Origin: Cyanobacterium sp. T60_A2020_053
Lineage (GTDB): Bacteria; Cyanobacteriota; Cyanobacteriia; Cyanobacteriales; Cyanobacteriaceae
Direction of reading: 5' to 3'
NCBI GenBank assembly: GCA_015272165.1
Contig: JACYMF010000015.1
Location: forward strand, 1-35,688
DNA length: 35,688 nt
Position 1 is the stretch's first letter, and each line of letters opens with the position of its first letter. The translations under genes were made by a program, and so were the position numbers. Below are positions 20,983-34,226 of the stretch, one piece after another. The notes under the pieces are model-generated. The model was given only the letters and a program-made list of their open reading frames with translations. It had not been told where the DNA came from and made no database searches.

Positions 20983-21122
20983 ATATCAAGTAATTTACCC
21001 ACCGTGTAATAAATTACACGGCTAACATTATCCCGTTCAATAAATTGAACTAAGATTTTTTTTAATTTATCTATAAGTGATCGCGCAGCGGCAGCCTTCG
21101 GCTGATCAAACGAACTTGATAT
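20983..21122 (-). repeat. R1 element, copy B
   Basis: A complete 140-bp copy with ends ATATCAAGT (20983-20991) and ACTTGATAT (21114-21122). The palindromes are CCGTGTAA/TTACACGG (21002-21021, loop TAAA) and GTTCAAT/ATTGAAC (21035-21050). A further block at 21073-21122 with the hairpin CAGCC-TTC-GGCTG also occurs in copy C at 25614-25663. Confidence 0.8.
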
Positions 21123-24235: not shown

Positions 24236-24295
24236 ATGAGTAATGATAAGCTGAATGATGCAATAAAATTTAAGATGACGAAAAGATATAGCTAA
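24236..24295 (+). CDS. Possible 19-residue leader peptide before hemE
   Basis: An ATG preceded by GGGGAGAGAGA opens a 19-codon frame ([19 protein letters not shown]) whose stop TAA shares its last base with the hemE start (TAATG). That arrangement gives direct translational coupling. The ribosome site is better placed for this frame than any seen for hemE. It may be a true regulatory leader peptide or simply chance. Confidence 0.35.
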
Positions 24296-25332
24296 TGAGC
24301 GATTTACCCCTATTGTTAAGAGTAGCCAGAGGCGAAAAAAGTGAGCGCCCTCCCGTGTGGATGATGCGTCAAGCCGGGCGCTATATGAAAGTATATAGAG
24401 AATTACGGGACAAATATCCTAATTTTCGGGAGCGTTCAGAAAATCCCGACCTCGCCATTGAAATATCCTTACAACCTTGGCGCGCTTTTCAACCTGATGG
24501 GGTGATTATGTTTTCCGATATTCTCACACCTTTACCCGGTATCGGTATTCCCTTTGATATTATTGAAAGTCAAGGACCAATCATCAATCCTCCCATCCGT
24601 AGTTTAGAACAAATTGAAAAACTACATCCCCTCAATCCCGAAGAATCTTTACCCTTCATCAAAACTATTTTAAACACTCTCCGCAGTGAAGTGGGCAATA
24701 AATCAACCGTATTAGGTTTTGTTGGTTCTCCTTGGACTTTGGCAGCCTATGCTATTGAAGGTAAAAGTTCCAAAAATTATGCCGTTATTAAAAGTATGGC
24801 ATTTTCTGAACCGGATATGCTTCACAAATTTTTAGGTAAAATTGCCGATGCTATCGCTGTGTATGTGCGCTACCAGATCGATTGTGGCGCTCAGGTAGTA
24901 CAGTTGTTTGACTCTTGGGCTGGAGAATTAAGTCCTCAAGACTATGAAATTTTTGCCTTACCCTATCAACAGAGAGTAGTTCAACAAGTGAAAGCCACTC
25001 ACCCCGATACACCGTTGATTTTATACATTAGCGGTAGTGCTGGAGTCTTAGAAAGAATGGGACAATCAGGGGTTGATATTGTTAGTGTAGATTGGACTGT
25101 GGATATGGCAGAAGCTAGGGCAAGGTTAGGACAATCCATGAAAGTACAAGGTAATATTGATCCGGGCGTGTTATTCGGTTCTCCTGAATTTATCCAAGCG
25201 CGCATCCATGATACTGTAAAAAAAGCTGGTAATGACGGGCATATCCTCAATTTAGGACATGGTGTTTTAGTTGGCACTCCAGAGGATAATGTGAGAGTGT
25301 TTTTTGAAACCGCCAAAAGTGTCAGATATTAA
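24295..25332 (+). CDS. hemE: Uroporphyrinogen decarboxylase
   Basis: HemE removes four carboxyl groups from uroporphyrinogen III to give coproporphyrinogen III, in the pathway to heme, chlorophyll and bilins. The 345-residue protein has the two family signatures, [13 protein letters not shown] near residues 19-31 and [16 protein letters not shown] near 141-156. It also has FSDILTP with the catalytic-type aspartate near residue 80, and [12 protein letters not shown] near the C-terminus. The start overlaps the stop of a 19-codon frame by one base. It stands as a single gene, between the metallo-hydrolase and a repeat-filled gap. Confidence 0.97.
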
Positions 25333-25424
25333 TTGATAATTAGGGGTTGCTGAAAAAGTGAGTCGTGAGGGCAAATTGACCATTGATAATGGATAATTGA
25401 CAATTATGAGGCTTTACTATCTTC

Positions 25425-25663
25425 GTAATTTACCCACCGTGTAATGAATTACACGGAACCAACAGTATCACGTTCAATAAATTGAACTAAGATTATTTTA
25501 CAGCGCTTTTCTAATGAATAAACCACATTTTTTATGTCTCGCAAAGTCGCCAAGTCGCAAAGAAGAATGCTAAGTGTGGTTTAAAGAAATGAAAATTGCT
25601 GTAATTGATTGATAAGTGATCGCGCAGCGGCAGCCTTCGGCTGATCAAACGAACTTGATATTA
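25425..25663 (-). repeat. R1 element, copy C, interrupted by R2
   Basis: It has palindromes CCGTGTAA/TTACACGG (25437-25456) and GTTCAAT/ATTGAAC (25472-25487), and the end AACTTGATAT at 25663. The 50 bp at 25614-25663 are the same as in copy B. Between these conserved halves lies the R2 copy, absent from copy B. The 25425 end is shorter than in copies D and E. Confidence 0.75.
25498..25604 (-). mobile_element. R2 element, complete copy inside R1 copy C
   Basis: The ends TTACAGC (25498-25504) and GCTGTAA (25598-25604) are perfect inverted repeats. The similarity continues, with gaps, to TAAACCACA on both sides, about 30 bp. The middle holds the GCAAAGTCGCCAAGTCGCAAA stretch seen in reverse in the other R2 copies. 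Confidence 0.7.
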
Positions 25664-25742
25664 ACCCTTATTCAGCAAACCCTAGTTCATAATTCATAAT
25701 TCATAACTCACTATCCCCTCTGCTTCCCTCTCTTCTCCTTTT

Positions 25743-26510
25743 ATGACGAATCAACCGCCATTACAAAAATTACTAGAAGCTATTGCCGAAGGGAAAATAA
25801 GCCCTCAAGATGGGGTGGAAAAAATCAAAAATTTTAGCTTTGAAACAGTGGGCGATTTTGCTAAAGTTGATCATCATCGGCAACTGCGCACGGGTTTTCC
25901 TGAAGTGATTTGGAGTGAAGGTAAAACCCCTGAACAAATTATCGCTATTATCCAAGCCATGAAGAATAATGGCACGGATTTGATCATGGCAACTCGTCTT
26001 GATGCTAATACCGCGGAAATTATTGCCACTGTCATTGATGATTTTCGTTACTATCCTTTGCCACGCATAGGGGCGCTGGGACAAAGTAAACTAAAGTATC
26101 AAGGCAAAATTTCTATTATTACGGCTGGTACAGCCGATCTACCTGTTGCGGAAGAATCTGCTCTCACGGCGGAATTATCAGGATTTCAGGTGGAAAGACT
26201 CTGGGATGTGGGGGTAGCTGGGATTCATCGCTTACTAAATCATCGTCATTTAATTCAATCTGCTGATGTTTTAATTGTCGTAGCTGGGATGGAGGGCGCT
26301 TTACCTAGTGTTGTAGCAGGTATGGCAAATTGTCCCGTTATTGCTGTACCTACCAGTGTTGGTTATGGTACAAATTTTGGAGGAGTAGCGCCCCTCCTCA
26401 CCATGCTTAACTCCTGTGCTACGGGTATCGGAGTAGTTAATATTGATAATGGTTTTGGGGGCGCTATGTTAGCTGGGCAAATTTTGCGCCTAGCTAATCG
26501 TTTTAAGTAA
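25743..26510 (+). CDS. larB: LarB, nickel-pincer cofactor biosynthesis protein
   Basis: LarB carboxylates and hydrolyses nicotinic acid adenine dinucleotide, the first step in making the nickel-pincer nucleotide cofactor of lactate racemase. The 255-residue protein has an N-terminal part with GDFAKVDHHRQLRTGFPEVIW and a C-terminal PurE-like domain with ITAGTADLPVAEE, VAGMEGALPSVVAGM and VPTSVGYGTNFGG. The family is often mis-annotated as an AIR carboxylase. The partner genes larC and larE are not in the window. The start ATG lies 56 bp after the repeat locus. Confidence 0.92.
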   Translation: MTNQPPLQKLLEAIAEGKISPQDGVEKIKNFSFETVGDFAKVDHHRQLRTGFPEVIWSEGKTPEQIIAIIQAMKNNGTDLIMATRLDANTAEIIATVIDDFRYYPLPRIGALGQSKLKYQGKISIITAGTADLPVAEESALTAELSGFQVERLWDVGVAGIHRLLNHRHLIQSADVLIVVAGMEGALPSVVAGMANCPVIAVPTSVGYGTNFGGVAPLLTMLNSCATGIGVVNIDNGFGGAMLAGQILRLANRFK

Positions 26511-33734: not shown

Positions 33735-33768
33735 CAATTGATAATTGACAATGGACAATTGATAATTA
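33735..33768. repeat. ATTGATAATTGACAA-type short repeats
   Basis: Short AT-rich units (GACAATTGATAATTGACAATG and variants) directly follow the mutL stop. They are like those at 18301-18333 and 25377-25410, where the same trailing AATTATGAGG text also appears. Confidence 0.65.
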
Positions 33769-33887
33769 TGAGGTTTGACTAGCTTCGTGTAGCATCTGTA
33801 ATCTCGTATTTTAACCGCATTTTTATAAAAAAAAGCATCACTTTACATATTTTCTGATGGTTTTAGTCTGTTTTATATCAAGTCTTT

Positions 33888-34037
33888 ATATCAAGTCCGA
33901 TTGGTCACTTACAAATCAATTAAAAACAATCTTAGTTCAATTTATTGAACGTGATAGTATTAGCCGTGTAATTCATTACACGGTGGGTAAATTACGAAGA
34001 TATAATGTATTTGTAACTAATTATCCGAACTTGATAT
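33888..34037 (+). repeat. R1 element, copy D
   Basis: A complete 150-bp copy: ends ATATCAAGT (33888-33896) and ACTTGATAT (34029-34037), palindromes GTTCAAT/ATTGAAC (33935-33950) and CCGTGTAA/TTACACGG (33964-33983). A second ATATCAAGT at 33875-33883 suggests a duplicated or older end. Confidence 0.8.
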
Positions 34038-34046
34038 TAGTCCGTT

Positions 34047-34150
34047 TTACAGCAGTTTTCATTTCCTTAAACTATACCTTGAATTATCACAAAGATTCTC
34101 TTTGCGCCTTTGCGTCTTTGCGAGAAACAAAAGACATGGTTTATTACTCT
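34047..34150 (+). repeat. R2 element, copy between R1 copy D and lysA
   Basis: The left end TTACAGCAGTTTTCATTTCC matches R2. The middle has CTTTGCGCCTTTGCGTCTTTG and the right part reads GACATGGTTTATT. The right terminal repeat is not preserved. It begins 9 bp after R1 copy D. Confidence 0.65.
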
Positions 34151-34226
34151 TGCCTTTTGCCTCTTGCCTTCTATGATAAGATAATTTTCATAACCTATAA
34201 CTGACTGCTATATTTAATCAAAATAA

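Follow-up and report, generated by a model that had tools for sequence, protein, structure and literature searches.

Introduction

Cyanobacteria reportedly harbour very small mobile repeats, said to have been described by Elhai et al. in 2008, and elements of the IS630/Tc1-mariner type duplicate TA at their target. When transposons are nested, the order of insertion is often used to date their families relative to one another. Among the closest described systems to the elements analysed here are the type II MITEs of Anabaena sp. 90, with 147 complete or partial copies in that genome (PMC3542288). Like these MITEs (77-541 bp; PMC3542288), the three families that we call R1, R2 and R3 are short, have inverted ends and occur in many, mostly intergenic copies. 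In Anabaena sp. 90 there is no resident IS with the same ends (PMC3542288, available text), and none was found here in the places searched. The likeness is one of description, not of sequence. Nesting is not mentioned in the available text of the Anabaena sp. 90 paper (PMC3542288), and the word 'nested' is absent from the available text of a review of prokaryotic MITEs (PMC10969869).

A three-layer nest between hemE and larB

The window, by which we mean the whole 35,688-nucleotide stretch of Cyanobacterium sp. T60_A2020_053 DNA that was analysed, contains a nest of R3, R1 and R2 between hemE (24295-25332, PF01208) and a larB-like gene (25743-26510, PF00731). The two genes are 410 bp apart, and 340 bp of this gap are filled by an R3 element on the plus strand. 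An initial annotation had proposed that R3 ends of 14 bp with one mismatch enclose an R1 copy, and this holds with a precise span of 25343-25682, the left end reading TAGGGGTTGCTGAA and the right end TTCAGCAAACCCTA. The interior of this outermost layer, which is both interrupted and internally deleted, belongs to a subfamily named R3b here, with uninterrupted copies elsewhere. In front of it lies TAATTA (25337-25342), the presumed left target copy, which agrees at four of six bases with its right counterpart TAGTTC (25683-25688).

The middle layer is R1 (25418-25660, plus strand). Its left end is missing, while its right end, CGAACTTGATA, is intact and is followed by TTA (25661-25663), after which the text continues as R3b. 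R1 is interrupted in turn by a 107-bp stretch from TTACAGC to GCTGTAA, correctly recognised at the outset as an R2 copy (25498-25604); R2 proper, also on the plus strand, is 101 bp long (25501-25601) and stands between two copies of TA (25499-25500 and 25602-25603). A 25-bp plus-strand module, GCGCAGCGGCAGCCTTCGGCTGATC, lies between GATC repeats inside R1 (25622-25646, with GATC directly before it at 25618-25621) and forms a fourth layer. The module is also present in R1 copy B (20983-21122, plus strand), which had been taken as an uninterrupted control. Copy B does serve this purpose at the R2 site, but it falls short of a full R1, as it lacks about 35 bp behind the left end.

Six uninterrupted R3b copies, L214 (contig C56), L215 (C61), L217 (C54), L218 (C12), L224 (C69) and L226 (C8), have an unbroken TTAACCC at the R1 site, with the variants TTAGCCC in L218 and TTAACCT in L224. 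The right end of the window R1 meets TTAACCCTTAT at the same base as the occupied TTA site of other R3b copies. For the inner joint, the R1 at C112:1777 (L063) reads TTATTTTAATTGATTGATAAG through the R2 site and thus represents the empty site. Among 222 loci of this genome, an R1 core is followed by an R2 end at a distance of at most 75 bp in four, and only in the window does R1 resume beyond R2. Neither of the two outcomes that the initial annotation had named as refuting was seen. These internal empty-site controls are unusually good. The nest, with R3 interrupted by R1 and R1 interrupted by R2, is confirmed, and the insertion order at this spot, R3, then R1, then R2, is supported because each host has uninterrupted copies elsewhere in the genome.

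The assembly is in 118 contigs and repeats can cause misjoins, so that an assembly artefact, or a chance match of AT-rich text, might be suspected. Still, the R3 end word GGGTTGCTGAA has 76 occurrences across 3.36 Mb of genome (39 + 37 by strand), against two (0 + 2) for a backward-read control, the joints match the empty sites to the base, and such nests are found on many contigs. We find an origin of the nest in chance or misassembly barely credible.

Both the left end of R1 and the middle of R3 are missing from the nest, and where the R3b left arm meets the truncated R1 there stands a shared 9-bp word, TATCTTCGT (25418-25426, plus strand). Since this word is present both in L215, an intact R3b, and in R1 copies that are intact, a deletion between two copies of it would explain the joint. 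A similar joint, TATCTTCG, was seen in a copy on C117 (L022/L047). In the right arm of the window R3, 22 bp before TCAGC are missing relative to L214. The window contains a second pile-up on the plus strand, at 33736-34155 (end approximate), consisting of R3b left text (33736-33885), an R1 in reverse orientation (33889-34036) and an R2 that starts at 34050 and is cut off at its right end.

The neighbours of hemE differ in the relatives that could be read, which leaves no orthologous empty site. Of 11 hemE loci from relatives, six were read on the side away from the downstream region because of their orientation, and in the other five no larB was recognised by eye. The nearest named HemE proteins among the best 80 of 582 matches come from an unclassified cyanobacterial MAG (93%) and Geminocystis sp. 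GBBB08 (92%).

Ends, targets and copy numbers of the three families

R3 ends pair elsewhere in the genome: a partner end lies at most 450 bp away at 33 of the 76 GGGTTGCTGAA loci. Among loci with paired ends, a length of about 255-258 bp is commonest. Identical 6-mers flank 13 of 31 elements after removal of double reads, compared with 8.2 expected, a value reached by 62 of 10,000 shuffles. Within the 6-mer only positions 3 and 4 are variable enough to inform (775 and 217 of 10,000 shuffles), so although a TAATTA-like target duplication of about 6 bp is probable, we infer its length of 6. The duplication is plainest for an R3 inside R1 at C110, which has TAAGTA on either side.

Directly behind the left end of R3 copies lies a block with a period of 7 (about 25371-25408 in the window), and this periodicity reaches p ≤ 0.01 in 29 of 42 elements, some of them read from the other end. 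The motif differs between copies and includes GTGTCAG, GAATGTA, GACAATT, GTGGGAA and others. An internal tandem array is also found in the BrickBuilt MITE of Porphyromonas gingivalis, whose unit is 23 bp (PMC4596501, available text), against about 7 bp in R3, with motifs that differ between copies.

R1 has the inverted ends TATCAAGTTCG/CGAACTTGATA, full copies of about 150 or 174 bp and at least 40 matches in the genome. Its flanks follow a T-N-A pattern whose middle base agrees in 36 of 41 elements, some of them read on both strands, where 20 would be expected; none of 5,000 shuffles reached 36. The target duplication of R1 is TTA or TAA; the TA that had been suggested initially applies to R2. 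In L061, L212 and L124, TTA stands on both sides of R1 at an R3b site that is empty in six other copies. The duplication is shown at these sister sites, the left TTA of the window R1 having been lost.

The 25-bp module is present in 31 of 83 R1 core copies, while 28 have the right end but no module and 24 were left unclassed. A rule placed 28 of 30 observed module contexts in R1, and the remaining two also read as R1. By description only, the module resembles the very small mobile repeats reported from cyanobacteria in being a small sequence that a larger repeat may carry or lack. R1 matches were found in 11 of 60 genomes including its own, several by the core only. The exact R1 core had no match in a collection of genome contigs from which its own genome was possibly left out.

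R2 has at least 40 matches in the genome. Scoring of 40 among 77 candidates gave the window copy itself, five near-identical copies (98-100%) and 34 diverged ones (73-84% identity). Since L063 reads uninterrupted at the R2 site and the window R2 has TA on both sides, TA has been duplicated, and the target of R2 is TA within TTAA. Across elements, the right flank is TA in 31 of 33, the left TA having been required by the search. The duplication is seen against the empty sites in L063, L072 and R3b copies, and all three cases of R2 in R3 (L100, L103 and L171) have TA on both sides. R2 shares the TA duplication with IS630/Tc1-mariner elements, yet the three DDE_3 loci of this genome are not bounded by R2 ends.

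R2 matches occur in eight of 60 genomes including its own, in three of these through the inner repeat alone, and none was found in four congeners, one of which is 63% complete. In two genomes from a different genus of the same family (G008 and G012; L373, L374 and L381), R2 is 88-90% identical, above the 80-81% identity of hemE between its own genome and these two. Judged from sequence in a comparison that spans only about 100 bp, horizontal spread of R2 is possible.

A shared insertion site in R3b

R1 occupies one and the same R3b TTA in L061, L212, L124 and the window. This is what would be seen had R1 entered R3 once, the resulting composite then being copied as a single mobile unit to several places. 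However, R1 lies in both orientations at this TTA, and it is also found at other positions of R3b (L040, L233 and L171). A comparison of R3b backbones, from which L124 and the window copy were left out as too short, gave a difference of 15.2% between L211 (at the place of L061) and L212, each of which is closer to the unoccupied L214 (11.3% and 11.1%, respectively). The nearest rows to L211 are L215 and L220, the latter not covering the site. We consider a single copied composite unlikely, and the composites in L124 and the window could still share an origin.

A tally by eye, which omits copies with unclear joints, gave eight R1 insertions in R3b, four at the shared TTA including the window and four elsewhere (L040, L171, L233 and L022). 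If eight insertions were spread at random over 17 TTA/TAA sites, the number in one R3b reference, a site hit four times would be expected with p = 0.012. The TTAACCC that hosts R1 in other copies is occupied by R2 in L213 (the same place as L171). R3 text covers at least 30 of 120 flanking bp at 11 of 30 R1 loci (30 of the 40 matches), compared with 188 of 1,220 (15.4%) non-coding TTA/TAA sites from the same loci, which are not mutually independent (binomial p 0.004). This difference is a hint that R1 may prefer R3 for landing. It is conceivable, if somewhat doubtful, that R3 elements act as landing pads which R1 enters more often than other AT-rich non-coding sites, with the TTA as a hot spot (R1 in both orientations, R2 once), so that nests grow on nests.

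Class of the elements and candidate parents

R1, R2 and R3 are MITEs, having inverted ends, many dispersed copies, a target duplication and no coding capacity, with no ORF of 80 aa or more within 25343-25682. The guide to the transposase class of each family would be its target duplication alone. In the places searched, no transposase gene was bounded by ends matching R1, R2 or R3, nor was any transposase so bounded at 12 DDE_3/DDE_Tnp_1 loci. Pairing by eye of about 100 of 124 places revealed no R1 ends 0.6-2.5 kb apart. Inward-facing pairs of R1 or R3 ends 0.9-1.2 kb apart were seen at four loci (L058, L087, L124 and L150), where the genes in between encode a PIN-domain protein, ExoD, an ABC transporter and a sugar transferase, and no transposase.

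The R3-like matches near DDE_Tnp_1 loci appear to be fortuitous, being either isolated or internal to transposase genes. An IS982-type remnant (NF033520, E-value of 1.7e-48) that adjoins R3 text on C58 looked like a parent of R3, and was rejected: the ends at four of nine IS982 loci of relatives contain (C)AGTTCG, unlike R3, and the R3 end pair was found at none of the nine. The remnant (L253, G000:C58, bases about 1500-2045) is a broken gene with one TGA inside the match that abuts R3 text, and seems to be an IS that entered an R3 copy. On C75 (L208), TAAGCTAAGACGCATT repeats flank a DDE_3 transposase, and an R3b copy on C7 (L225) contains almost identical text; these elements may perhaps constitute another small family with a resident parent.

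Rfam returned no matches, and the titles among the papers listed for GGGTTGCTGAA, 15 of 20, were unrelated. No description of R1, R2 or R3 was recognised by title or start of abstract in the literature searched, which mostly excludes subscription papers. The kind to which they belong, MITEs without a resident parent, is already known from cyanobacteria (PMC3542288).

The window is also rich in an octamer, GGGCGCTG, which stands at 32 places (for example 1045-1052 and 26071-26078) compared with 0.39 expected from dinucleotide shuffles. The usual cyanobacterial HIP1 octamer, GCGATCGC, is absent from the window, where 0.12 would be expected by chance. GGGCGCTG seems to take the place of HIP1, although it is not a palindrome. 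A paper on alternative HIP sequences contains neither this octamer nor its complement in the main text (PMC4390886).

Nest orders across the genome

The joined-flank test covered 121 elements with recognisable ends (44 R1, 44 R3, some of these read twice, and 33 R2). Comparing the joined flanks with host references yielded 15 nests: nine R1 in R3, three of them at the shared TTA and one (L131) at only 67% identity, three R2 in R3, and one each of R2 in R1, R1 in R2 and R3 in R3. The sole R2 in R1 is that of the window. The split-host test gave seven R1 in R3, including a nest on C7 whose direct guest in R3 is R2, as well as three R2 in R3 and one each of R2 in R1, R1 in R2 and R3 in R3. An R3 inside R1 at G000:C110 (L055) was missed by both tests and found by eye. 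These counts are not a census, the loci having been gathered by queries with R1, R2 and R3 themselves.

The C7 nest (G000:C7, L039 bases 355-808) has the structure R3[R2[R1]], with the order of R1 and R2 opposite to that in the window. TTA stands on both sides of its R1, and the second TA beside its R2 has one base changed. Each of the two opposite nests, R1 in R2 and R3 in R1, was seen once.

The initial annotation had taken the three successive insertions as dating the families, with R3 oldest and R2 youngest. Had R3 been active first and died, followed by R1 and then R2, the order at the hemE-larB locus would follow, and it would suit this history that R1 in R3 (nine) is far commoner than the reverse (one) and that six R2 copies are 98-100% identical. 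A strict age order of the families is nevertheless refuted, because R3[R2[R1]] exists at C7 and R3 in R1 at C110. The 34 diverged R2 copies speak against it as well, and we regard such a succession of families as very unlikely. The order of insertions stands for the hemE-larB locus; the family ages drawn from it do not. R2 is not simply young, given these diverged copies and its presence in other genera. Since insertions between the families went both ways, their activity periods overlapped, and nesting order is a property of single copies, not of families.

Discussion

We consider it highly probable that three MITE families inserted one inside the next downstream of hemE, and that the activity of these families overlapped. 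Each would presumably have been moved in trans by its own transposase. R3b came first, at an AT-rich intergenic site, R1 followed into the TTA of its TTAACCC, and R2 was the last to arrive, at TTAA in R1, where it duplicated TA. Recombination between the 9-bp words common to R3b and R1 probably removed what lay in between, and the right arm of R3b was shortened by a further deletion. The nest is most likely neutral debris, and its order holds for this spot only.

The target duplications of three MITE families without a known transposase make for a narrower search for their movers. With both orders of the same two families in one genome, and with empty-site controls, nest order dates copies, not families.
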